Positions 29,165 to 43,191 of a stretch of 43,191 nt of DNA are shown here, piece by piece. The first letter of the stretch is position 1. Each line of letters begins with the position of its first letter. The stretch is from a virus. The DNA is taken from positions 1 through 43,191 of the IMG/VR virus record IMGVR_UViG_3300030044_000006, one strand, 5' to 3'. Below the pieces are notes generated by a model. It was not told where the DNA came from. It searched no databases and saw only the letters and a list, made by a program, of their open reading frames with translations. The position numbers were made by a program, and so were the translations under genes.

Positions 29165-30989
29165 TCAAGAGTTCAATACACAACTTCAGGAAACTAACTT
29201 TCCAACTCCGAATGTAAATACGCAAGCTCCGCTCGAGGCTTTTGGCGGTGGAAGCGTTCAGACTGGTCCAGAGGCTGCAATCGCAAATCTTGGAAATACA
29301 GTTGAGGGACTTGCTAAACAATCTTTCAATACGGCGACACTTGCTGCGAACATGCAGAATAAGAACGAGGTTGACACGTTCAAGTCGAACGGTCTGTATG
29401 GTTACACAGATCCAACCACAGGTCAGCACGTTCCTGGTGCTCTTGAAAAGATTCAGGGATCTGGACAAAATGCACACGCTGTTTTTGATCAGTATCAGCA
29501 GTCATATAATGACTGGGTTTCTGATAAAATGTCGAACTTGCCCACACCTCAGCAGAAACAATTTTTTGCAAATGCTGCGTCTGATTCTTGGGATGTTCAA
29601 AACAAGGTTCTTCAAACTCATATCAGCGCAGAGCAGACTCGTTTTCAGCAAGCTACTTACGACACTTCACTTGAAAATTCAGTGAACAGTGGGGTTCAAC
29701 AATACAGCGATTCTGATGCTGTAAACGCGGCAAAAGAAGAAATCATAAAAACCGCTCAGGCCTACGGATTTACTCATGGTCAAAGCACTGATGAAATAAA
29801 TGCAGCTCAAGGAAACGCCTTAAGTAAAATGTATTCAGGGGTGGTTGAGAAATATTTTGCTAATGGTCAAGCCGATCAAGGAAAAGATTATTACGAGTCT
29901 ATTAAAAATCAAATCACCGATTCAAAAACTTCTATCGCAATGGATAAGCTTGTTCAAGAAGGAGTTTTGCAGCAAACCGCTCAAACTACGGCTCAAGGAA
30001 TTGTAGCGAATCATTCGGATATGAGTTCTGCGGAATCTGAGATCGAAGGAATCAAAGATCAAAAATTACAGGATCAAACGCGTGAACGAGTTAAGACCCT
30101 CATGTCTATCAAGGATAAACAAACCCAAACGCAGCGCGATCAAACCGCAATGCAAGCTATAGATATTGTCACAAAAACAGGAAATTTTGACCAAGTTCCG
30201 TTGTCAATTCAGCAACAACTTGATCCAGCGACTTCAGATGCCATTAAGAAACTCGCAAATAATACGAATGGCGCTCAACCGATTCAGACCAACGATAAGA
30301 TTTTGCAGCAATATTCAAGCATGCCTCCTGCTCAACTTGGACAAGTTTCTCAGGCAGAAATGGCACTTAAAGTTCGTCCAAACTTAAGCGATTATGATTA
30401 TCAAAAAGTTCAAGCTCAGTGGATTCAAGCTCGAGAAGGTATTGGCGGAAATCAGGCAGCGCTTGCAAAAGCAAATCAGTTATTTGGGATTGACGGTATA
30501 GCGCTTCAGTCTTTCACGAATACTCGAATAAATGGCGCACAACCTGGTCAGAAATATAATAATTTTGATGCTCCAGTAAGACAAGCTTACGATGATTACA
30601 AGAGTGCGGTTCAAACTGAGATCGACACTCAACAACAACTCCAAGGTCGCCCACTCAAGCCGGATGAAGTTCAAGCAATTTCAAATAAAATTGCGACACA
30701 AAAGGTATTTACTTCGACTCCTGGAATGTTCGGAAATTCAGAGCAAGACAAACTGTTGTTTCAAGTTCCACCCGATCAGCGCGGAAACATCAGAGTTCGC
30801 GTTCAGAATATTCCACAAAATCAAACTCAACAACTGTATCAAATGGGCGTTCAGGCCGGAGGTATTCCAGTCAATACTCCGCTTGATGTGGCAACTTCTA
30901 AATATAAAAATAATTTCGAGAAGGCCTATGGTGCTTATATCCGTGGTGCAAATGCTCAACAAGTTAGAGCCATCATGGGAGGCCAGTAA
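29157..30989 (+). CDS. Internal virion protein, gp15-like
   Basis: The start is GTG 29157 (MPNQEFNTQLQETNFPTPNV), six bases after GGGAGGAG; the frame is open to an ATG at 29103 inside the preceding gene. The 610-residue protein is Gln/Ala/Asn-rich and predicted mostly helical (FANAASDSWDVQNKVLQTHI, AAKEEIIKTAQAYGFTHGQS). Position between gp14-like and a giant internal protein, size and composition match gp15-type core proteins that build the periplasmic part of the ejection tube. The stop shares a base with the next ATG. Confidence 0.8.
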   Translation: MPNQEFNTQLQETNFPTPNVNTQAPLEAFGGGSVQTGPEAAIANLGNTVEGLAKQSFNTATLAANMQNKNEVDTFKSNGLYGYTDPTTGQHVPGALEKIQGSGQNAHAVFDQYQQSYNDWVSDKMSNLPTPQQKQFFANAASDSWDVQNKVLQTHISAEQTRFQQATYDTSLENSVNSGVQQYSDSDAVNAAKEEIIKTAQAYGFTHGQSTDEINAAQGNALSKMYSGVVEKYFANGQADQGKDYYESIKNQITDSKTSIAMDKLVQEGVLQQTAQTTAQGIVANHSDMSSAESEIEGIKDQKLQDQTRERVKTLMSIKDKQTQTQRDQTAMQAIDIVTKTGNFDQVPLSIQQQLDPATSDAIKKLANNTNGAQPIQTNDKILQQYSSMPPAQLGQVSQAEMALKVRPNLSDYDYQKVQAQWIQAREGIGGNQAALAKANQLFGIDGIALQSFTNTRINGAQPGQKYNNFDAPVRQAYDDYKSAVQTEIDTQQQLQGRPLKPDEVQAISNKIATQKVFTSTPGMFGNSEQDKLLFQVPPDQRGNIRVRVQNIPQNQTQQLYQMGVQAGGIPVNTPLDVATSKYKNNFEKAYGAYIRGANAQQVRAIMGGQ

Positions 30990-33900
30990 TGGCAGATGAA
31001 TTTTCAGTTCAGAAAATGGACGTAGCGCCAACGACTCCACCTCAAAACGCTGGTCCCGCTCCGGCGAGTTCTGGAATAGAAAATTCCGTAACTCCTGCAC
31101 CAGTCGCTCCAGCTCCTGCACCGACTCCTCAGCCAGTTCAAACTAGGGTTCTTTCGACTGCGCCTCAAGCTCCAAATCCATACCCAATTGGTGCGTTTGA
31201 TTTGTCTGCGGAGGGAACAGAGGCTCAAACCGTTGCGAAAGTTCAAGCTGCATCGACCGACGGATCAACTCCAGATCAGGCTGCTAAAGTTTTAAATTTA
31301 TCCATGAAAACTGGGATTGCTCCAGAATTCATTAAGACAGATCCAGATGGTTTCGAGAAGCAAATGAACCAGGCTAATTTCTCGCCAGAGCAATTCGTTC
31401 AATCAAATCCGAAGCTCGCCGCATGGGTTGCGCAAAATCCTTTGCATTATCCGCTCATTAAAAACGATTTGCCGAATCTCAAAAGCATGTCCGATCAGCT
31501 TCAGGAATACGGAATGCTAAAAGACGCTTATGACGCACTTGGTTCCGGCGTGAATCAGCTTTTCGCGAATACCGCTCGGATTCCAAATTTCGCTTACAAT
31601 ATGGCCGCGTGGCCTCAGAATTATCTAGCGAGTAAATATCCTGATCAATTCGGTAACTTGGCGGCAAGTGCTCCAACGAGCAACATGGTCGCCGACTTCT
31701 TTGATCGGCAGGCTAAGACCTTCACTGACGAAAATTCAGACTTAAATGATTCGGTAAGTTCAGAGATCACAAAGGGTAATTACTCGAGAGCCGGACGTGT
31801 GGCATTCGCCAAACTCGTTCAGAGCGCTCCACAGCTCGCAGAATTGATGGTGGGGGGTGCCCAGGCGCATGGGCTGAAGCTTTTGCTCATGGGCAGTCAG
31901 CAGGCCGCTGAATCGGCAAACAGGCCTGAAAACCAAGCGGCGGGGCCGGTGACAGGTACTCTCGATGCAGTCACTCAGGGCGCGGTCGCAATGGGCGCGG
32001 GTGAGGTCGGAACTTTTGGACCAATGGCGAAATGGGGTGAAACCCTGGTTCAGAATTACGGCAAAGCCACGGCGGCGACGGTGATGAAATCGTTTACTAA
32101 TGCACTCACCTATTCATTTACTAGGGACGCGGGTTCGATGGCCGCGATGAGCGTGGCAAACGATTTAACCGACTACGCGACCGGGGTGAACAAAAACGCA
32201 CTCGAAGGAACTTTCGGACGTGCAATTGAAAGTGGCATTATCGGAGGCGCGACTGGTGCTCTCATGGTCTCGCCTTCTGCTGTACTGTCCGCGCATTCAA
32301 GCGTGCATGATATTCGTCAAGCACAGCTTCAAAAGGATTTTTACACGTCCTTGGGTGACACAGCAGAAGCGTCTCAAGTTAAAAAAACACTGCCTCTTAA
32401 GTTTCAGGAGATCGTCGATGCGCTGACCAAAAACGGACCCGTTGAGCACGTCTATGTTGATCCAAACGCGATGACTCAGCTTTACCAGTCAAAAGGACCG
32501 GATGAGCTTCCAAAGGTTTTATCGGATCTCAATATCGGCAAAGAATTCGATCAGGCAAAAGATTCTGGGGGAATGGTAAAAATTCCACTCTCTGATTGGA
32601 CGACAAAAATCGACCCTCAAGATTATAAGGCGATGGCCGATCATGTGACCTTTGATCCAGGTCAGCCAACCGTCGCTGAGGCTACTAAAGCGAATGACAT
32701 TGCTAGAGAAAACGAACACCACGTCGCAAATAACGGTGGTTCATTCAATGATCTCGGTCGCGGCGTCATTGAGCAGGTTAGCCAAAAACTTCAGGCGACC
32801 GGAATGGATAAAGCGACTGCGGATAAAAACGCTTCGATTTATAATTTCTTCAATGTGATGGCGCAGTCTGAAGGTACAACTCCAGAAGAGCTTTTTAGTC
32901 GGTACAATCTCGATATCACTCGTTCACTTCCTGATCAGCTAAAATCTAAAAACATTGATGAGTTTGATCCGATCCTGAATAAGCTTCGTGAGGGAAAAAT
33001 CCCAAGCGAGCGTGAGGCCTATGGCCAGTCGTTGATTGATTTCATGAAAGGAAAAGGCGGCGTAAATACTGCTGGACCTGGGTCCGACGTTCAGGCGATG
33101 GACATAAAAGGTCTTACAAGAAAAATGGGAATGGATCTTGATCGTGCAGCCGAGCAAGCGCACGAAGCTGGATATCTGAAGGAACATTCAATCCCAGAAT
33201 TGCTTCAGCGCGTGGCAGCCGAATCTCAAGGTCAGAAACAGTATGCTGAAGGAAATCGCCATCCTGAAAAAGCCGACACTCGAGAACAGATGCTTGAAAT
33301 GGATAAGTATCTTAGGAGTCAAGGAATTGACATCCAAAACGCAGATAATGAATCCATCAAAAAAGCGCTCGAAACGAACAGGGATTCGCCGAAGCAGGCG
33401 AAGGATTTTTTTGATTTTTTGCAGTCGAATGGTCTTGAAAAAAAGAGTGGTCCAGTTTTCCGTGGAAAGCTTCTAGGGGTAGCGCATCTTTCACATGGAA
33501 TAACAGATCACTTTATAAATCCTGAACACGTCAGTAATGAGATTCGTTATGATGGCGGTGAGGGCGTCTTTGGAAAACACACCTATTTCGATGAAAGTGG
33601 GAACTGGGTTGCCGGTGATGGAGGATACCGTGGGCAGATCGCCGGAGACAAAGTTCACTCGGCAGATCTCAACTTTAAAAAAGCGCTTCTTATCACACCC
33701 GAAACCATAAAAAGCCTTCCGCGAGAAATCCTTAAAATGAATGGCGATGAGGCCGTTGAATGGCTTAAGAAAAACGGTTACGATGGTTTAATAATTCGTG
33801 GAATGGACGATTTTGGTCAGCCAATTTCAGATGCAGCTCATGCTGCTACCCTTGAAAAGCACGGCATAGGATGGATGAATAGTAGACCTGGTGAGACTGA

Positions 33901-36900
33901 AGAGCAAGCCAGACAAAGAAGAATAGATACACACGCAGAAACCGCTAAATTCATTTCTGATCGAACTGGCGGTCTAGAAAATCTTTCACAATGGCAAGAC
34001 CAGGTAGTAAGTTTTTACCCACACGAAAACGCTGAAAATGTAAAGTATATCGGCTCTAAAGATGCTGTTTCCACGAAAGATATTGCAGCCCAAGAAAAAC
34101 GCGATAGATATCAATACTATCAAAATGGCGATCACGATCCAATGGGCGGCATCACCTTCCACCCCGACAAAACCACAATTTCACTTTTAAAAGACGCAAA
34201 CCTTTCGACGTTCTTACATGAGACTGGTCACTTTTTTACTAAGGTTTTAAATGATCTTGCAAGTCGTCCTGACGCTTCAGAACGCACGAAAGAAATCAAC
34301 CGAGCGCTTTACGATTTTGCCGGTGCAGAACATGGATCGGAGCTAACTCGAGAACAGCACGAAAAAATCGCCGAAGGTTTTGAGAAATACCTAATGGAAG
34401 GGAAAGCCCCGTCATCTGCGCTCAGAGAAGCTTTTGCCGCATTCAAAGCTTGGATGATTCACGCTTATAAAACACTGATGGCGCATCCTGATGTCACGCT
34501 CACCCCTGAAGTCAGAAACGCTTTTGACCGCATGATCGCGACTGACGATGAGATCGCAGATGCAAGGAATTCAGTCGGATTAAATCCATTATTTTCTGAT
34601 CCTCACAAGTTCATGACTCCAGAGGATGCGGCAAAATACGCAAAAACAGTTCAAGAAGCTCGAGCTGCTGCTGAAGACAATTTGACCGCTAAAAATATGA
34701 AGGCAGTCGAACGTGAACGCTCGAAACAGTATAAAATTGAGCGCGAATCAGTCGAACGTGAAATCACTGCTGAAGTTGAAGCGCGTCCAGAATACCGAGC
34801 ACTTGATGCGATTAAATCTGGTGAACTTCCAAACGGTCAAAAGGTCGATCTTCAACTCGATCGAAAAACGATCGTTGCGGATTATGGAAAAGACATCGCA
34901 AAAGAAATGCCGCGTGGGACTTTGACCAAAGACGGCCTTCACTACGAACAGGCCGCTGAATTGTTAGGGTTTAATTCGGGCCACGAATTGGTGATGGCGC
35001 TTGCAAATGCTCAGCCTAAAGACGATCTGATACGCCAGGAAACAGACAACGAAATGAGGCAGCGTTACGCTTACGAGGATCCGACCGTTAATGGTCAGAT
35101 GCAAGAAGAAGCGATGAAGTCCATCCACAACGCGAAAGAATCGTCTCGTTTGGCTTTCGAGTTGAAATGGATCATGGAAAATAAGCTAGGTGATTACAAG
35201 GAGCTGATGCGCAGGATCGGAAAACGCGTAATTACCGCTGAATCTTTCCAAAAGCAAGCCGACACGATCACTGCGACTTTATCTACTCGAGACTTAAAAC
35301 CTTATCTGTATCAGCGCGCTGAAACCAAGGCCGCAAACGAAGCGATGAATCAGGCGCTCAAGGGCGCGTGGGATAAAGCGTTTGAAGCGAAGTATCAGGA
35401 GTTTCTGAATCACGAGCTTTATAAAGCTGTTTCTGAATCTCAAGCTGACGTTCAAAAATCAGTCGATGGATTCAAGGACTTCAATAAAAAAGATGACGTG
35501 CTATCGAAAACCCGCGACATGAATTTGATCAATGCCGGTCGTGTGATTCTTGATCAGCTTGGAATTGGATCAGTTGAGCGCGGTGAAAAGGCGCAGGATT
35601 ATTTAGAGAAGCTTAAAAAATACGGCGATGTCGATCAGTACAATGAATCGGTCGCTCAGGTCCAGTCGCTCGGGCAATTAAAAGCCTATGGCGATATGCC
35701 GTATGGTCAATTCCAAGCGGTTCGTGAGCAGCTTGATGCGCTTTGGGATCTGGCAAAAATGAATCGTGAGCTTGATCTCCAAAACGAAAGAGTTGATTTA
35801 AACCAAGCTCAAGAAGAAACCCGAAATCAACTTGCAGACGTGAAACCAGGAAATTTCCGCAAGTATCGCGGAGAAGGTGGAAAAACCACAAAACTCGAGG
35901 ATCTCACTACGGGTGCTCTCTCGATCGGCAGCATGCTTGTTAGGGTTGAGCACTTCGTCGATGCGCTTTCAAATGGCGATATAAATAGTCCACTTTATAA
36001 ATATCTTTGGCTTCCGATCAAAGAAGCGTCATCTAAATTCAGACTTGCGAACGACGCTGCTCAGGATCGAATTAGTGACATGAATGAGAAGATTTTTAAA
36101 AAACTAAGTTATGAGCGAATCGAAGCTCCAGAACTTGGTCAGACTGCTGAAGGTGAAAACATATTTTTCCCAGATCAGGCGCATCTCATGATGGCTATTG
36201 CTCACTCAGGAAATGAAAGTAATCTCAAGAAACTCCTCATTGGTCGCGGCTGGGGTTCTATGGATGAGGAAGGAAATCTTGATCGCAGTCAATGGGACGA
36301 ATTCCTAAAACGCGCAATGACCGACGGTAGCGTAACCAAAGATATGATGGATTGGGTCCAAGGGATGTGGGACTTGAACGAGTCTCTCCTTCCAGATGCA
36401 CAGAAAGCCCATTACAAACGCTATGGACGATATTTTGATACCGTTGAGCATACTCCTGTTCAAACTCCTTTTGGCGATTACAAAGGGGGTTATATTCCCG
36501 CAGCCGCTGATCGTGATCTAACAAAAACTGGATACACCGATCAAGTAATTCGTCAAGGTAAAGCGATACTAGAGTCTGATTCTGGATACTCATTACTACC
36601 GGGTTCTAGCAATGGATTCACTAAAAAGCGAGTCGATAATTACAATGTGCCATTGAGCCTTGATCCGGGTCTGATTGGTTCACACGTCCGAGAAGTTTTA
36701 AAATTCACGCACATGGATCCGACGATTTATCAAGTGGGCCGTTTGATCCTCGATCGCGGCGTTTCAAAGGGTTTTGACTCGATTCTGCCTGAAGCGACAA
36801 AAAAAGTTTTGATTCCGTTTCTCGATCGCGCAAAACAGCAAACGACTGGAAAGCCAGGATCGAATCGCTATCTTGATCAGGCCATGAATTACTTGCGGAC

Positions 36901-37969
36901 GAACAACTCTGCGATGGTCTTCTTTTTGAACGCTCGAAACACCCTGATGATGTTTCATGGAATTCCAATGGCGATGTCTAAAGAAATTCCAGCGTCTTAC
37001 ACTGCTCGAGGATTCTTGAGTTACATGCAGGACGCAAAAGGCACACAGGAAATGATCAGCGAAAAGTCACCTTGGATGAGTTCAAGGTTTAATGATCGCT
37101 CGACAACAATGCGTAAAACGCTTTACGATATTGCAAATGGAACCGGAACGGCAAGCGACATAAAAAAATATATCGTGGCAAACTCGTTTTTTACTCAGCA
37201 CGCAGTTCAAAATGTGGTCGATGTTGGCATGTGGAAAGCGTCCTATGATCACGCGATTTCCCAGGGTCACGCGGAGGATCAGGCAATTGCAAAGGCTGAT
37301 GCGGTAATTTCTCAAACTCAGCACAATATGGAACCGATTTCGATCAGTAGCGCCGAACACACGACGCCTCTCGTGAAATCGCTTCTCGGGTTTTACTCAT
37401 TCCAAAACCTGAAACTGAATCTTCAGGCTGGTGAGTATTACAAGGCTTTAAAATTTCAAGGCATAAAACAGGCCGCTTTTCGTGCGCTTCCTATTTTCGC
37501 GTACACAAGCGCAATTCCTGCAATGATGATGACGACTGCTGCAATAGCGCTTTCGGGCAAGGCTTGGGATGAGTCTGGCGATGGAGCTTGGCAGGCGTTC
37601 GCTTCCAAAGTCGGTCAAAACATCGGTCGCGATACACTTGCTGAAATTCCGATCGTGGGTTCAATGGTCGATTCCATGCTTCACGAAAAACGCAAGGGTG
37701 AGGCCGACAGGTTAAACTCTCCTGCTCTCGATGCACTCTATGCCGGGATTCATGCTCCAGGTGAAATTAAGAACGCCATTCACTCTGGAAAGTGGGACGA
37801 TAAATCCATCAAGGATAGTTTAACTCTCATGAGTTTAATTTCCGGTGTTCCGGTGACTCCTCTCGCGAAACCTGTCTCATATTTAAACCAAGTTAATTCG
37901 GGTAACGCTCACCCGACTGGTCCGATTGATTTTACTCGTGGACTTATCACGGGTCAGAAGGGAAGATAA
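30989..37969 (+). CDS. Giant internal virion (gp16-like) polyvalent protein with ART-like and HExxH segments
   Basis: The 2326-residue protein fills the slot of gp16-type ejected core proteins. Residues 1-65 are Pro/Ala-rich. Residues about 260-480 resemble the N-terminal part of phage polyvalent proteins. Residues about 815-1025 look like the ART-PolyVal ADP-ribosyltransferase family: PVFRGK, HTYFDESGNW, KKNGYDGLIIRG and a late FYPHENAENVKYIG. Residue 1077 begins HETGHFF, an HExxH zinc-protease-type motif, followed by helical AHPDVTLTPEVRNAFDRMI. The remaining 1200 residues are mainly helical, with one hydrophobic stretch near 2170-2195 (FAYTSAIPAMMMTTAAIALS). It could enter the cell with the DNA. 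Enzymatic activity is inferred. Confidence 0.85.
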   Translation: MADEFSVQKMDVAPTTPPQNAGPAPASSGIENSVTPAPVAPAPAPTPQPVQTRVLSTAPQAPNPYPIGAFDLSAEGTEAQTVAKVQAASTDGSTPDQAAKVLNLSMKTGIAPEFIKTDPDGFEKQMNQANFSPEQFVQSNPKLAAWVAQNPLHYPLIKNDLPNLKSMSDQLQEYGMLKDAYDALGSGVNQLFANTARIPNFAYNMAAWPQNYLASKYPDQFGNLAASAPTSNMVADFFDRQAKTFTDENSDLNDSVSSEITKGNYSRAGRVAFAKLVQSAPQLAELMVGGAQAHGLKLLLMGSQQAAESANRPENQAAGPVTGTLDAVTQGAVAMGAGEVGTFGPMAKWGETLVQNYGKATAATVMKSFTNALTYSFTRDAGSMAAMSVANDLTDYATGVNKNALEGTFGRAIESGIIGGATGALMVSPSAVLSAHSSVHDIRQAQLQKDFYTSLGDTAEASQVKKTLPLKFQEIVDALTKNGPVEHVYVDPNAMTQLYQSKGPDELPKVLSDLNIGKEFDQAKDSGGMVKIPLSDWTTKIDPQDYKAMADHVTFDPGQPTVAEATKANDIARENEHHVANNGGSFNDLGRGVIEQVSQKLQATGMDKATADKNASIYNFFNVMAQSEGTTPEELFSRYNLDITRSLPDQLKSKNIDEFDPILNKLREGKIPSEREAYGQSLIDFMKGKGGVNTAGPGSDVQAMDIKGLTRKMGMDLDRAAEQAHEAGYLKEHSIPELLQRVAAESQGQKQYAEGNRHPEKADTREQMLEMDKYLRSQGIDIQNADNESIKKALETNRDSPKQAKDFFDFLQSNGLEKKSGPVFRGKLLGVAHLSHGITDHFINPEHVSNEIRYDGGEGVFGKHTYFDESGNWVAGDGGYRGQIAGDKVHSADLNFKKALLITPETIKSLPREILKMNGDEAVEWLKKNGYDGLIIRGMDDFGQPISDAAHAATLEKHGIGWMNSRPGETEEQARQRRIDTHAETAKFISDRTGGLENLSQWQDQVVSFYPHENAENVKYIGSKDAVSTKDIAAQEKRDRYQYYQNGDHDPMGGITFHPDKTTISLLKDANLSTFLHETGHFFTKVLNDLASRPDASERTKEINRALYDFAGAEHGSELTREQHEKIAEGFEKYLMEGKAPSSALREAFAAFKAWMIHAYKTLMAHPDVTLTPEVRNAFDRMIATDDEIADARNSVGLNPLFSDPHKFMTPEDAAKYAKTVQEARAAAEDNLTAKNMKAVERERSKQYKIERESVEREITAEVEARPEYRALDAIKSGELPNGQKVDLQLDRKTIVADYGKDIAKEMPRGTLTKDGLHYEQAAELLGFNSGHELVMALANAQPKDDLIRQETDNEMRQRYAYEDPTVNGQMQEEAMKSIHNAKESSRLAFELKWIMENKLGDYKELMRRIGKRVITAESFQKQADTITATLSTRDLKPYLYQRAETKAANEAMNQALKGAWDKAFEAKYQEFLNHELYKAVSESQADVQKSVDGFKDFNKKDDVLSKTRDMNLINAGRVILDQLGIGSVERGEKAQDYLEKLKKYGDVDQYNESVAQVQSLGQLKAYGDMPYGQFQAVREQLDALWDLAKMNRELDLQNERVDLNQAQEETRNQLADVKPGNFRKYRGEGGKTTKLEDLTTGALSIGSMLVRVEHFVDALSNGDINSPLYKYLWLPIKEASSKFRLANDAAQDRISDMNEKIFKKLSYERIEAPELGQTAEGENIFFPDQAHLMMAIAHSGNESNLKKLLIGRGWGSMDEEGNLDRSQWDEFLKRAMTDGSVTKDMMDWVQGMWDLNESLLPDAQKAHYKRYGRYFDTVEHTPVQTPFGDYKGGYIPAAADRDLTKTGYTDQVIRQGKAILESDSGYSLLPGSSNGFTKKRVDNYNVPLSLDPGLIGSHVREVLKFTHMDPTIYQVGRLILDRGVSKGFDSILPEATKKVLIPFLDRAKQQTTGKPGSNRYLDQAMNYLRTNNSAMVFFLNARNTLMMFHGIPMAMSKEIPASYTARGFLSYMQDAKGTQEMISEKSPWMSSRFNDRSTTMRKTLYDIANGTGTASDIKKYIVANSFFTQHAVQNVVDVGMWKASYDHAISQGHAEDQAIAKADAVISQTQHNMEPISISSAEHTTPLVKSLLGFYSFQNLKLNLQAGEYYKALKFQGIKQAAFRALPIFAYTSAIPAMMMTTAAIALSGKAWDESGDGAWQAFASKVGQNIGRDTLAEIPIVGSMVDSMLHEKRKGEADRLNSPALDALYAGIHAPGEIKNAIHSGKWDDKSIKDSLTLMSLISGVPVTPLAKPVSYLNQVNSGNAHPTGPIDFTRGLITGQKGR

Positions 37970-37973
37970 AACT

Positions 37974-38927
37974 ATGTCCATATCGTCCACGACATGCCGA
38001 AGTTTATTCGTTGGAAATGGTGCGGTTTCAGTTTACGATTACAATTTCAAACTCTTTCAGGCCGCCGACCTTTATGTTTTCATCCAAGACACCGAGGATA
38101 ATCAGTATGGTCCGCTTGTATTAAATACAGACTATTCAATAACTGGCGTTGGTTTTAGAAACGGTGGTTCAATTAGCCTGATAAACGCGTCTCAAGCATG
38201 GTTAACTTCTGGCGGAAATCTTATCACCGGATGGTCGATTCTTCTTATCCGATTGCCTGCGCTCACACAACTAACGGACATTAAAAATCAGGGCGCTTAT
38301 TTTCCGGAGCTTCACGAGAATGAGTTCGATACGCTTGTTATGCAGATTCAGGAGTTGAATGATCAAATCGCGAGATCCGCGATGTTTCCACTTTTTATAA
38401 CTCCAAATATTTTTAATCCTCAATTTCCAGCCGTTCTTCCGATTCCTGGACAAACGCTGATTGCTAACACGAGCGCTGACGGTTTTGTTTGGGGTCCGGT
38501 GGTTGGGTCTATTTCCGCATCTCTTATTTATGATGCAATTGTCGGCGCAGAAAATGGATGCAACTATACCACCCTTGCGGCAGCGCTCGCAGTGGCACAG
38601 CCAAATTGGAGAATTTTAGTTAAAGACTCTCTGACCATGAACAGCGGGTCTGGTTTTGTTGTAACTATCGGTGGAATCTTAATTGAATTCGCACCAAATG
38701 TGACTTACTCCCAGGGGTCTTTGTCTGGTCCAGCATTTACGATTGAAGCATCAGGGGTAAGAATTAAGGGTGGAAGATTCAGCGGTTTCACTACCGCATT
38801 TCAAGTGAACAATTCTTATAATTTCAACTTTATTACTGAATGTAGATTTGCTGCCTGCACAACTCAAATTAGTGATTTGAACAGTGCGCCTAATAACATT
38901 TACTTTAATAATATTACGGAGTCATAG
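37974..38927 (+). CDS. Tail fibre/spike with T7-type N-terminal domain
   Basis: ATG 37974 follows GAAGGGAAG by about eight bases; a longer frame begins inside the giant gene. The 317-residue protein opens with SLFVGNGAVSVYDYNFKLFQ, DYSITGVGFRNGGSISLIN and FPELHENEFDTLVMQIQELN, the pattern of virion-binding N-terminal domains of T7-type fibres. The C-terminal part (about 190-317) has short repeated strands (GGILIEFAPNVTYSQGSLSG, IEASGVRIKGGRFSGFTTAF) like a right-handed beta-helix. It is short for a receptor-binding spike, so it may be an adaptor to which the following protein binds. Confidence 0.85.
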   Translation: MSISSTTCRSLFVGNGAVSVYDYNFKLFQAADLYVFIQDTEDNQYGPLVLNTDYSITGVGFRNGGSISLINASQAWLTSGGNLITGWSILLIRLPALTQLTDIKNQGAYFPELHENEFDTLVMQIQELNDQIARSAMFPLFITPNIFNPQFPAVLPIPGQTLIANTSADGFVWGPVVGSISASLIYDAIVGAENGCNYTTLAAALAVAQPNWRILVKDSLTMNSGSGFVVTIGGILIEFAPNVTYSQGSLSGPAFTIEASGVRIKGGRFSGFTTAFQVNNSYNFNFITECRFAACTTQISDLNSAPNNIYFNNITES

Positions 38928-41900
38928 ATGAAAAATAAAATTAAAAAATACATTGCGTTAATTGGTGGTCTTGTGGGTGTTGGGGCGATGGCCGTTGCTA
39001 TGGCTGCGCAGTCGCCCGCAGTCATCCCCAACAACGACTTATCTCTTGGTTTGACTGGAAATACCAACAAGGTACTCGAGTTTAATCTTACCGCTCCAGG
39101 GGCATCGACAAATCCAAAATTAAGATATAACAGTTCAAATAATTCGATTGAATATTCCAATAATGGAACTACTTTTAATCAAATTGGAACTGTCAATCCA
39201 CTGCCAACTCCTACTCAAACTACTCTGGGTGGCGTACTGGCAGCGACTCCTACGCCTGGCGAATATGTGATCGGTATTGCCGGGACTGGTGCTCCGATTT
39301 TTGGCCCAGTGACAGGAATAGGTACGGTGACATCGGTCGGAATGACGGTGCCTTCCTTCTTGTCCGTGAGCGGTTCGCCAATTACCACAAGCGGAAGTTT
39401 TGGACTTACTCTCTCAGGAACGGCGCTAGGGGTTGCCAATGGTGGAACTGGAGATACTACGCTCGCATCAGGAAAGCCTTTGATCGGAAATGGAACTAGT
39501 CCGATTACAAATGGGACTTTTGCAGGTAATACGACCGAGATCGCGACCGTAAGCGGTGCGCTTACTTCCGGTCACTGCGTTGATATCGATTCAAATGGGA
39601 ATTTGGTAGACGCTGGTGCCGCGTGTAACGCCGGAAGTACGGGCGTCACTTCAGTTGGTCTAGCAGTTCCATCGTGGCTAAGCGTTGCAGGCTCTCCAGT
39701 AACGTCCAGTGGTACGATGACAATCAGTTCTACGACCGTCACAGAGAACAAATTTTTGGCTTCTCCAAACGGCGCAAGTGGTGTTTTAAGCCCACGAGCG
39801 ATAGTTGGTGCAGATTTACCCAATCCAACGTCAACGACTTTAGGAGGTGTTTTATCTGCGACTCCGACGCCAGGACAGTTCATGGTCGGGATATCATCGG
39901 TTGGGGTGCCTTTATTTGCGACGGGTGGCGGTCTTGGGACTGTCACTTCGGTTGGAATGACTGTTCCAGCATTTCTATCGGTATCTGGGTCGCCAATAAC
40001 GTCTAGTGGGACTTTGGCCGTGTCTCTTTCGGGATCTGCACTTCCAGATTCAAGTGGTGGAACTGGAATTGATAGTTCAAGCAGTACGGGCATTGCACAT
40101 GTCTCTTCTGGAACTTGGAGTTTTTCGCCAGTAAATTTATCGAACTCAGACGTGACTGGAAACTTGCCAGTTGCTAATTTAAACTCTGCCACAAACGCAT
40201 CTAGCGCAACATTTTGGCGTGGTGATGCGACTTGGAGTAATACTCTAACGGATTCTATTACGGTTTATTCAGATACTGGAACCAATTTAAATCAAGTATG
40301 GATTGGTCCTGGTTCGAGTGGTTATCAAGCTTGGGACTGGTTCGTAACAGCGTCTTCAATGATTCTTGAAAATCCTGCTGTTGGCGGTTTCAGGGAAGTT
40401 CACGATAACGTCGGGGTAGTATCGTTTAATGGAAACACAAGTGATGTTGCGGCTCTTGAGGTTTACGGAATATCAAATAAAGCTGCTCTCATGGTCGCAA
40501 ATAATGCTACAACTCCGGGAGATTTATTTGATGGCTGGAATTCTGCCCTAAGCACAAAATTGTTTTCGGTCAATAATGCCGGAGCAGTAACAAATGGCGC
40601 ATGGAATGGCAGTACTGTGGGCGTTCCATATGGTGGAACGGGCGCGACAACGCTTTCTAGTGGGGCACCTCTCTTTGGTGCTGGAACTTCTGCAATCACG
40701 ACCGGAACGCTTTCGGGAAATACCACTGAACTCGCAACATCAACGGGAACTCTGACCACTGGACACGGAGTTAAAATTGATGCAAACGGAAACTTCATAG
40801 ATGCAGGTTCGGCTTATGGTACGGGGTCCGTAACTTCAGTTGCGCTAACTGCTCCTGCATGGTTAACCGTTGGTGGAACTCCGATCACCACAAGCGGAAC
40901 TTTGGCGATTACCGGAACAAGTGAGAGTGCAAATTTATTTTTGGCTTCTCCCAATGGCTCTAGTGGTGCAATGACTCCGAGAGCGATCGTAGGCGCTGAT
41001 CTTCCCAATCCTACTACTACGACTCTAGGTGGCGTGCTCGCCGCAACTCCGACTCCTGGTCAATTCGTAACCGGCATTTCAACGAGCGGTGTAGTGCAGT
41101 TTGGAACGGGGTTGGGTACTGTGACAAGTGTATCGCTTACAGTACCGTCATGGCTTACGGTTGGGGGATCTCCAATCACTACGAGCGGAACGCTTGCGGT
41201 CACAGGAACCAGTGAGAGTGCAAATCTTTTTCTAGCGTCCCCAAATGGATCAAGCGGGGCAGTTACTCCGCGCGCGATTGTGGGTGCAGATTTACCAAAC
41301 CCTTCCACTTCTACACTTGGCGGTGTGCTCGCCGCCACGCCGACCCCGGGATATTATGTGGGTGGGATTTCAACGAGTGGTGTAACTACATTACAGGCAT
41401 TTACAGCGCCAACCCTAAGCATAGCCACAGCTACCGGAACGGGTACAGGCGGATTTGGATCTTCTCAAACCGGGGTCCTCATTACACTTACCACTACAAC
41501 CATTACAGCTACAGCGGGTGCGGTTTATACGAACAATAGTAATAGCTACACCTTACTCAATACCGTCTCCACTGCTACGGTGGGACTATTCTTTTCTGGA
41601 AGCGGAACAACATCCGGTACCACATTTACCAAATCTAGCGGTACTGGCCCTTCCACCATAGTGGCGAATTCTGCATCAAATATTCAAACTTTAGCGACCT
41701 ACACGACGCCAACAAGCCCACGAACTCCACTTTATTTAAAAGCAAAACAAGTAGGCGCCGGGGGCGGTGGGGCCGGTTCTGGTAGTACCACAACTGGGGG
41801 CATTGGGGGCACTGGGGGCGCTACCACTTTTGGTACAGATCTGCTTTACTGTGGTGGTGGCACTGGGGGGTATACATACGCTGCGGGTGGTCCAGGTTTG

Positions 41901-42305
41901 GGTGGTTCGGGTGGGATCGGCAACACAGCAACATATCTTGTGTCTATTCCTGGCAGTGGGGGACAAGCAAGTAATGGGGTTGCATTGGCAAACGTGGGGG
42001 GTGGTGGTGGAGCAACTCCATTTGGTGGAGCGGCAGGAGCAACAACAGGGGGAGCTGCTAACTATGGACAACCTAACTCGGGGTCAGGTGGTTCGGGTGG
42101 GCCGGGTAGTGCTACAGCCCTATCGGGAGGATGTGGGGGCGGCGCGGGCGGTTATGAAGAAGCTAATATTTATTCTCCTTCGGCCACTTATTACTATTCG
42201 GTAGGTACGGCAGGAACGGCAGGGTCCGCAGGGTCTGGTTCTGGGGCCACACCGGGTGGGCAAGGTGGGTCTGGGTATATAGTTGTGGAAGAGCATTATC
42301 AGTAA
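38928..42305 (+). CDS. Long repetitive fibre-like protein with N-terminal signal peptide
   Basis: The 1125-residue protein starts directly after the preceding stop, with GGAG eight bases upstream. Its first 28 residues look like a Sec signal: KNKIKK, hydrophobic YIALIGGLVGVGAMAVAMAA, AxA-type cleavage site. Then come imperfect repeats: GTVTSVxxTVPxxLxVxGSPIT (about six), LFLASPNGSSGAxTPRAIVG plus TLGGVLAATPTPG (three to four), and GGTGxTTLxSGxPL (two). Residues about 848-920 resemble the insert in the nozzle protein. The last 180 residues are Gly-rich, ending in GGSGYIVVEEHY, like Gly-rich adhesin tips of tail fibres. It is probably the receptor-binding fibre, but the signal peptide is unexpected. 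Confidence 0.8.
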   Translation: MKNKIKKYIALIGGLVGVGAMAVAMAAQSPAVIPNNDLSLGLTGNTNKVLEFNLTAPGASTNPKLRYNSSNNSIEYSNNGTTFNQIGTVNPLPTPTQTTLGGVLAATPTPGEYVIGIAGTGAPIFGPVTGIGTVTSVGMTVPSFLSVSGSPITTSGSFGLTLSGTALGVANGGTGDTTLASGKPLIGNGTSPITNGTFAGNTTEIATVSGALTSGHCVDIDSNGNLVDAGAACNAGSTGVTSVGLAVPSWLSVAGSPVTSSGTMTISSTTVTENKFLASPNGASGVLSPRAIVGADLPNPTSTTLGGVLSATPTPGQFMVGISSVGVPLFATGGGLGTVTSVGMTVPAFLSVSGSPITSSGTLAVSLSGSALPDSSGGTGIDSSSSTGIAHVSSGTWSFSPVNLSNSDVTGNLPVANLNSATNASSATFWRGDATWSNTLTDSITVYSDTGTNLNQVWIGPGSSGYQAWDWFVTASSMILENPAVGGFREVHDNVGVVSFNGNTSDVAALEVYGISNKAALMVANNATTPGDLFDGWNSALSTKLFSVNNAGAVTNGAWNGSTVGVPYGGTGATTLSSGAPLFGAGTSAITTGTLSGNTTELATSTGTLTTGHGVKIDANGNFIDAGSAYGTGSVTSVALTAPAWLTVGGTPITTSGTLAITGTSESANLFLASPNGSSGAMTPRAIVGADLPNPTTTTLGGVLAATPTPGQFVTGISTSGVVQFGTGLGTVTSVSLTVPSWLTVGGSPITTSGTLAVTGTSESANLFLASPNGSSGAVTPRAIVGADLPNPSTSTLGGVLAATPTPGYYVGGISTSGVTTLQAFTAPTLSIATATGTGTGGFGSSQTGVLITLTTTTITATAGAVYTNNSNSYTLLNTVSTATVGLFFSGSGTTSGTTFTKSSGTGPSTIVANSASNIQTLATYTTPTSPRTPLYLKAKQVGAGGGGAGSGSTTTGGIGGTGGATTFGTDLLYCGGGTGGYTYAAGGPGLGGSGGIGNTATYLVSIPGSGGQASNGVALANVGGGGGATPFGGAAGATTGGAANYGQPNSGSGGSGGPGSATALSGGCGGGAGGYEEANIYSPSATYYYSVGTAGTAGSAGSGSGATPGGQGGSGYIVVEEHYQ

Positions 42306-42314
42306 GGAATCAAT

Positions 42315-42530
42315 ATGGTAAGATCCGATGGCGAGAGACTTGCTACTTTAGAAAGCGATTCAAAATGGATAAAAATCCAAATGATCGAACTTCGTAAAGA
42401 TGTGAGAATTCTTATCCACGCTAAGGATAAAAATTCAGGAGCGCGTGCAGTTTATGGAGCGCTTGCAGGAATCGCCGGGGGTTTAATCGCTATTGTCGTT
42501 CAACTTTTTACGAAAGGATATCTTCCATGA
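42315..42530 (+). CDS. XhlA-like small membrane protein (holin-type candidate)
   Basis: The 71-residue protein has a charged coiled-coil N-terminus (GERLATLESDSKWIKIQMIE, LRKDVRILIHAKDKN) and one C-terminal membrane helix (VYGALAGIAGGLIAIVVQLF) with a short KGYLP tail. This arrangement resembles the hemolysin XhlA family, which takes part in lysis with a holin. It begins the host-exit/accessory cluster after the fibre gene, with AAGGA about seven bases before the ATG, and overlaps the next gene by ATGA. Confidence 0.75.
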   Translation: MVRSDGERLATLESDSKWIKIQMIELRKDVRILIHAKDKNSGARAVYGALAGIAGGLIAIVVQLFTKGYLP

Positions 42531-42919
42531 ACCCGTTTGTACAAAGAAAAATGTGGATTGCCGACGGTGCATTTGGTGAAATGAGTGACGATAAAGGGTC
42601 ATTTGTTTGTTGTACAATGGAGCGTTTGTTTGATGGTAAAACCGTTATCCCCGCCGGAACATGGGATTTTTATCGTTACTGTTCGCCACATTTTGGTTAT
42701 GAAGTTTTTAGGTGCGATACTATTCCCGGACATGAGGCAATCGAGTTACACATCGCAAACTTTGTGGAACAATTAGAAGGGTGTGTAGGACTAGGCGAAC
42801 AAATCGGCCCACGCTTTGCAAAGCCTGGGAGGATGCTAATGAAGAGCTTAGATGCTTTTAAAAAGTTTATGGCGCTTCAAGTAGGAGTGGACAAAATCCG
42901 AGTGACCTTTCATGATTAA
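42527..42919 (+). CDS. DUF5675-like protein
   Basis: The 130-residue protein fits the phage family I know as DUF5675: FVCCTMERLFDGKTVIPAGTWDFYRYCS, FRCDTIPGHEAIELHIANFVEQLEGCVGLGE, and a short C-terminal helix (LDAFKKFMALQVG). Family members read CYTLE, KIPxGxY, RIHxGNxxxDxxGCIL. The GC-containing loop and histidines resemble L,D-transpeptidase-like catalytic sites, so peptidoglycan activity is possible, but this is not established. It follows the XhlA-like gene with an ATGA overlap, so it is a candidate lysis enzyme. Confidence 0.8.
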   Translation: MNPFVQRKMWIADGAFGEMSDDKGSFVCCTMERLFDGKTVIPAGTWDFYRYCSPHFGYEVFRCDTIPGHEAIELHIANFVEQLEGCVGLGEQIGPRFAKPGRMLMKSLDAFKKFMALQVGVDKIRVTFHD

Positions 42920-42941: not shown

Positions 42942-43191
42942 ATGAACCCGATTCAAGAAAAATATCCGGCCCTTTTCGCATTCATCGGTCTTTTAAGTGC
43001 GGTAGCAAAAGACTTTGGAGCGAGTGGAACGCTTCTTCAACGCTTAGTCAGTCTAGATAACACGATTCCTCAAGTGACATCCTTTGTGCCGCTTGCAGGA
43101 CAACTCGGTGCTGAAATTGCAGCGATTGAAAAAGTTCCAGCCGACCTGGTAGAGGCGGCAGAAATTTTTGTCACCGACTTAAGTTTCTCAA
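42942..43191 (+). CDS. Hypothetical 117-residue protein, N-terminal part (continues at base 1)
   Basis: ATG 42942 is nine bases after AAGGAG and begins MNPIQEKYPALFAFIGLLSA. The frame runs off the end of the window and continues in frame at base 128 once the 127-bp duplicate is removed, ending at 231. The N-terminal 20 residues contain a moderately hydrophobic helix (YPALFAFIGLLSAVA) but no clear signal. No family is recognised. It follows the DUF5675 gene by 22 bases. Confidence 0.85.
   Translation, partial: MNPIQEKYPALFAFIGLLSAVAKDFGASGTLLQRLVSLDNTIPQVTSFVPLAGQLGAEIAAIEKVPADLVEAAEIFVTDLSFS
43065..43191. repeat. Terminal direct repeat, right copy
   Basis: Identical to bases 1-127. It shows that the contig closes on itself; the unique genome is 43064 bp. 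Confidence 0.95.

Follow-up and report, generated by a model that had tools for sequence, protein, structure and literature searches.

According to the accepted view, tailed phages assemble their virions entirely in the cytoplasm; since tail fibres, too, are normally made inside the cell, a Sec-exported one would be unexpected. In the branched systems of Autographivirus phages, a T7-type fibre is combined with a separate second receptor-binding protein, and the gene for a short N-terminal adaptor fibre is followed by that for the tip-bearing protein, as at the locus described here. These second receptor-binding proteins are not known to have a signal peptide. PblA and PblB of streptococcal prophages, likewise not known to carry one, reach the surface through lysis; another difference is that their hosts are Gram-positive. 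Like the protein studied here, both are phage tail-type proteins with a proposed adhesin role, namely on the bacterial surface (PMC4508584, among others). In the mosaic adhesive trimer (MAT) superfamily of Bdellovibrio, the signal peptide is followed immediately by a beta-rich domain of about 130 aa that is conserved among members (Nat Microbiol 2024, PMC10769870). By their described layout (signal peptide, beta-rich domain, fibre-like shaft and exchangeable tip) MAT fibres are alike, but they are encoded by a predatory bacterium and were shown on its cell surface, whereas the protein reported here is encoded by a phage in its late module. T4 Spackle offers a comparison as a periplasmic protein made by a phage and acting on subsequent infections, although it is not a fibre and its target is the lysozyme of the incoming phage (PMC7677548). 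Ordinary tail fibres from Achromobacter phage Motura (QDH83637), Cylindrospermopsis phage Cr-LKS3 (g11) and Cyanophage Cy-LDV1 (g10) share the GTVTSVG and ASP-G-R-LV-D-P repeats with our protein, but have neither a signal peptide nor the Cys-pair hairpin, and two of the three contain zero Cys.

The stretch of DNA analysed (the window) is a virus record of 43,191 bases with an exact 127-bp direct repeat at both ends (1-127 and 43065-43191), so that it probably represents a whole genome of about 43.06 kb. Moreover, the contig L002 runs from the right end of the window into its left end, in agreement with a complete genome. The late module is of podovirus type, with terminase, head-tail adaptor, major head protein, tail proteins and internal virion proteins. 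No integrase was found in the genome, and a search for a T7-type RNA polymerase gave no signal in the window or in the control genomes. Among the window proteins scanned, no fibre-type genes were recognised besides those at 37974-38927 and 38928-42305 (Table 1). The second of these encodes the 1125-aa fibre-like protein and, as the preliminary description had stated, possesses a clear ribosome-binding site and starts directly after the T7-type fibre gene: the TAG stop ends at 38927 and the next ATG, at 38928, follows in frame with zero gap. The same gene order, a T7-type fibre followed by a 1169-aa protein, was found in the relative L004 (IMGVR_UViG_3300040759_000021), where the ribosome-binding site context, ACGGAGTC, is identical. 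Upstream of the T7-type fibre, a 2326-aa protein (30989-37969), matched by a similar one in the corresponding place of L004, is probably a very large internal virion protein. Elsewhere in the window, a 170-aa protein (1341-1853) combines a signal peptide with a metzincin-like HExxxHxxGFxHxH/YGMN motif; it has no Pfam or PHROG match and is possibly a secreted zinc metalloprotease. A probable lipoprotein with an LSNC lipobox-like sequence is encoded directly before it (895-1344).

Table 1. Features of the exported fibre locus (all coordinates refer to the window)
Feature	Coordinates	Strand	Details
T7-type tail fibre, putative adaptor	37974..38927	+	317 aa; PHROG 1640, E 1.7e-30, residues 1-142
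GGAG ribosome-binding site	38918..38921	+	6 nt before ATG, within the last codons of the T7-type fibre gene
Fibre-like ORF	38928..42305	+	ATG start, 1125 aa
Sec signal peptide MKNKIKKYIALIGGLVGVGAMAVAMA, residues 1-26	38928..39005	+	heuristic score 6.3; predicted cut before AQSPAV
Conserved mature N-terminal domain, residues 27-87	39006..39188	+	89% identity to L004 over residues 27-101
Fibre repeats, GTVTSVG..P..LSVSGSPIT.SGT and ..ASP.G..G...RAIVGADLP types	39189..41399	+	common to ordinary tail fibres
Hairpin module GNTTEIATVSGALTSGHCVDIDSNGNLVDAGAAC, residues 200-233	39525..39626	+	Cys217 and Cys233, putative disulfide pair
Second hairpin module GNTTELATSTGTLTTGHGVKIDANGNFIDAGSAY, residues 597-630	40716..40817	+	both Cys lost
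Glycine-rich C-terminal tip, residues 925-1125	41700..42302	+	Cys975, Cys1069; ends IVVEEHYQ
71-aa protein, putatively holin-like	42315..42530	+	one C-terminal hydrophobic segment in the sequence; no PHROG or Pfam match
DUF5675 protein	42527..42919	+	PF18925, E 2.5e-15

The N-terminus of the 1125-aa protein was evaluated with a calibrated heuristic score rather than with SignalP, as were all signal-peptide calls reported here. It displays an n-h-c layout with five Lys, a single uncharged hydrophobic stretch and an A-M-A/A end, and its score of 6.3 lies within the range of the E. coli controls OmpA (6.5), DsbA (6.3), MalE (5.3), PelB (5.2) and PhoA (4.6); T7 gp17 received no call. Composition-preserving shuffles of this N-terminus reached 6.2 in only 0.4% of cases. 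A score of at least 5 was obtained for two of the 48 called window genes (the 1125-aa protein and the 1341-1853 product). Among the ORFs of 150 aa or longer from the retrieved loci that served as background, 69 of 840 reached this level. The analysis confirmed the Sec signal peptide, together with its A-M-A/A motif, that the preliminary description had placed at the front of the protein, but moved the predicted cut from residue 27 to residue 26. The residue at +1 is Ala, and Cys occupies this position in none of the 46 distinct family signal peptides, in contrast to what is expected of an SPase II lipoprotein. In addition, Pfam and NCBIfam profile searches found no surface-anchor family in the protein.

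The protein was then compared with that of L004, the one close relative on which this comparison rests, which begins MKLNQKLKKIILSILGASGLAGIAIA/AQSPAVIPNND. The two signal peptides share 35% identity with an unchanged n-h-c design, compared with 89% for the next 75 residues (27-101). Codon differences followed the same division, with 4 synonymous versus 19 nonsynonymous in the signal peptide (ungapped comparison) and 33 versus 8 in the first 61 mature codons. Divergence confined in this way to the signal peptide is typical of targeting signals that are cleaved off and tolerate sequence change, and is not what a structural helix would show. The n-region, hydrophobic core, A-X-A motif, fast-changing signal and conserved mature start of a protein secreted through Sec and SPase I were all found. 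The retention of the hydrophobic helix for a virion role, also considered in the preliminary description, is disfavoured, as this helix is the fastest-changing part of the front and the residues after the cut are conserved.

Further along the protein, identity to L004 was 83-97% per 75-residue block over residues 27-401 and mixed (47-75%) up to residue 626; beyond about residue 627, the two sequences are unrelated. In the T7-type fibre encoded upstream, conservation is instead highest towards the C-terminus, where the last third has 89-90% identity to L004, although the C-terminus of such a fibre is normally the variable, receptor-binding end. Since this end is conserved while the C-terminal half of the exported protein is swapped, we infer that the T7-type fibre may serve as an adaptor and that the 1125-aa protein would bear the tip. 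A receptor-binding role in the virion would account for the swapped half, and for the location behind an adaptor-like fibre, at least as well as the display on infected cells suggested earlier.

Export was further assessed across the family by three scans. A degenerate DNA pattern for the Cys-pair hairpin retrieved 35 loci from IMG/VR, in which a signal peptide starts nearly every complete ORF. Because this pattern demanded cysteines, a second scan used a hairpin-module pattern with the Cys positions left free and blind to signal peptides; 33 of its 34 complete ORFs received a signal-peptide call (29 at 5 or above, four at 4 to 5, and one none). The enrichment of scores of at least 5 (29/34 versus 69/840 in the background) gave p about 1e-24, a nominal value because more start codons were allowed for the module-bearing ORFs and several copies are near-duplicates. 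The third scan, based only on the shaft repeat common to ordinary fibres, returned 80 ORFs, of which about seven had a convincing signal peptide and most others began with usual fibre N-termini. Taken together, these scans suggested that export tracks the hairpin module and not fibre repeats in general. Unrelated family members carry standard signal peptides, with Gln at +1 in 32 of 46. Furthermore, the mature N-termini of L007 (E 1.5e-4) and, more weakly, L022 and L121 resemble those of fibres without a signal peptide that start at Met, indicating that processing would leave an ordinary fibre N-terminus and further arguing against a helix kept in the virion. Predicted export of the window protein, and of the whole uncultivated-phage family, is well supported by these sequence comparisons.

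The role of the hairpin cysteines was evaluated among distinct module copies in the Cys-neutral sample, with the second Cys scored as present also when it lay one or two residues away from its usual position. Both cysteines were found in 35 copies, neither in seven and a single one in none (p about 4e-8); two of the seven Cys-less copies (L180 and L194) hold another Cys pair within the module. The two cysteines are therefore kept or lost together, as expected of disulfide partners, and such a bond would suit an oxidising environment beyond the cytoplasm. This pattern suggests that the pair forms a disulfide, which would be made in the periplasm. An AlphaFold2 model of the module from 23 sequences (pLDDT 57, pTM 0.27) showed only a short beta-hairpin around Cys217-Cys233; its confidence was too low for judging the bond or for a fold search, and the disulfide in the model proposed below is accordingly putative.

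The 1125-aa protein is encoded in the tail module and shares its shaft repeats with annotated tail fibres; its ..ASP.G..G...RAIVGADLP repeat type falls in Pfam DUF5907 in the relative L118. The glycine-rich tip, presumably the receptor-binding end, is missing from L004, whose C-terminus differs, and similar tips occur in L069 (exported), L056 and L132. The tip had no match in cultured phages in a search whose low-complexity filter possibly masks it. For the full protein, no match was found in Pfam, PHROGs or NCBIfam, no relative in a PDB sequence search and none along its whole length in bacterial genomes. The hairpin module was likewise without a match in 50,697 cultured phage records. The lack of profile matches and of the module in the cultured phages searched may explain why the open-licence papers searched yielded no account of a tailed phage with Sec-exported tail fibres.

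Within two genes of the exported fibres, PHROG matches comprised tail, DNA ejection, head, baseplate, fibre and lysis functions, and Pfam matches included SU10 adaptor and P22 coat. On the podophage-like contig L003, the gene for a 540-aa exported fibre precedes that for a glycine-rich protein of 325 aa, which is exported as well. Adjacent genes of L003 (3100-8438) have the signal-peptide-like N-termini MKRILLGVAFLLGFVGAAQA, MRKLLLALALTWGFVAPALA, MRKLLALALALALLLLTGPAVA and MKKFFASLLLLIGLALPLNA and seem to form an exported cluster flanked by capsid-like and tail-tube-like genes. In bacterial genomes, the Cys-pair pattern occurs only rarely, at nine loci in 84,980 species; one of these, L050, was dropped as a chance match within a sugar-phosphate enzyme-like ORF, and the others are mostly from Acidobacteriota. 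The module locus L044 (Xanthobacteraceae) adjoins a phage tail gene, and two Bryobacterales loci adjoin glycosyltransferase genes. The chromosomal module genes of L043, L046 and L048 (Bryobacterales) lie beside glycosyltransferase or hydrolase genes, and their products may be cell-surface fibres of the bacteria themselves.

We propose, at about an even chance of being correct, that the 1125-aa protein is a receptor-binding fibre which, after its export, attaches to particles when the cell lyses. In this model, the 26-residue signal peptide would target the fibre to the host Sec machinery and signal peptidase I would cut it, a step strongly supported by sequence. As the paired cysteines suggest, a disulfide disfavoured in the cytoplasm would then form in the hairpin module in the periplasm, where the exported protein would fold, probably into a trimer as fibres do. 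The conserved N-terminal half would provide attachment, and the swapped C-terminal end would be the receptor-binding tip. In the last and least certain step, lysis would bring the pre-folded fibres together with the particles made in the cytoplasm, the short T7-type fibre from the adjacent upstream gene would serve as the docking site, and the virion would be completed outside the cytoplasm. Against this model, no tailed phage is documented among open-licence papers as finishing its particles with a Sec-exported fibre, and the exported Bryobacterales proteins beside glycosyltransferase rather than phage genes fit a cell-surface role for at least part of the family.

The main rival to docking at lysis is free or surface-bound action, such as receptor blocking or superinfection exclusion. 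In this case the exported fibre would never join the virion; it would remain periplasmic, at the surface or free in the lysate and bind the host receptor, which would block competing phages or stop progeny from sticking to debris. Export does separate the fibre from the cytoplasm, where tailed particles assemble, and many such phages carry several adjacent exported proteins, as 34 of 116 same-strand neighbours of exported fibres are themselves exported, compared with 5 of 247 where the fibre lacks a signal peptide. The glycosyltransferase genes beside related exported Acidobacteriota proteins point in the same direction, and T4 Spackle, a periplasmic phage protein for superinfection exclusion (PMC7677548), provides a precedent. 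However, the 1125-aa protein has no lipobox or recognised anchor, its gene lies in the late virion module beside an adaptor-like fibre, its tip is swapped as in receptor-binding virion proteins, and a multi-repeat fibre of this length would be a costly decoy. We consider this reading somewhat unlikely.

It is improbable that the gene is a captured host surface adhesin, an exported bacterial fibre as in Bdellovibrio that would serve host physiology and not the particle. The Bdellovibrio MAT proteins, which are made with a signal peptide and join a beta-rich N-terminal domain to phage-fibre-like shafts at the cell surface (PMC10769870), and the exported module-bearing proteins in Bryobacterales genomes are consistent with such an origin. 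On the other hand, the lack of an integrase in a complete-looking genome makes long-term conversion of the host not obvious, and the gene is set between the T7-type fibre and late genes in two phages. Least probable is that the N-terminus is a helix retained in the virion for membrane activity or assembly, which the drifting helix, the preserved cut site and the standard signal peptides of unrelated members contradict, or an internal segment of a TAG-readthrough fusion of both fibre genes, for which the gapless in-frame junction in the window would allow a product of about 1443 aa but which is ruled out by L004, where the two genes are offset by one nucleotide and cannot be joined.

Dozens of uncultivated phages encode similar exported and probably disulfide-bonded fibres in their tail-gene region. 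Extending the docking model to them, we suggest tentatively, and with less confidence than for the window protein, that in uncultivated tailed phages of a widespread group the particles are completed only after leaving the cytoplasm, with Sec export of receptor-binding fibres, periplasmic oxidation and folding, and joining at lysis only. If many phages send Cys-paired fibre-like proteins through Sec, the periplasm would represent a second assembly compartment for receptor-binding parts; alternatively, such fibres would mean an unrecognised layer of phage-made surface adhesins.
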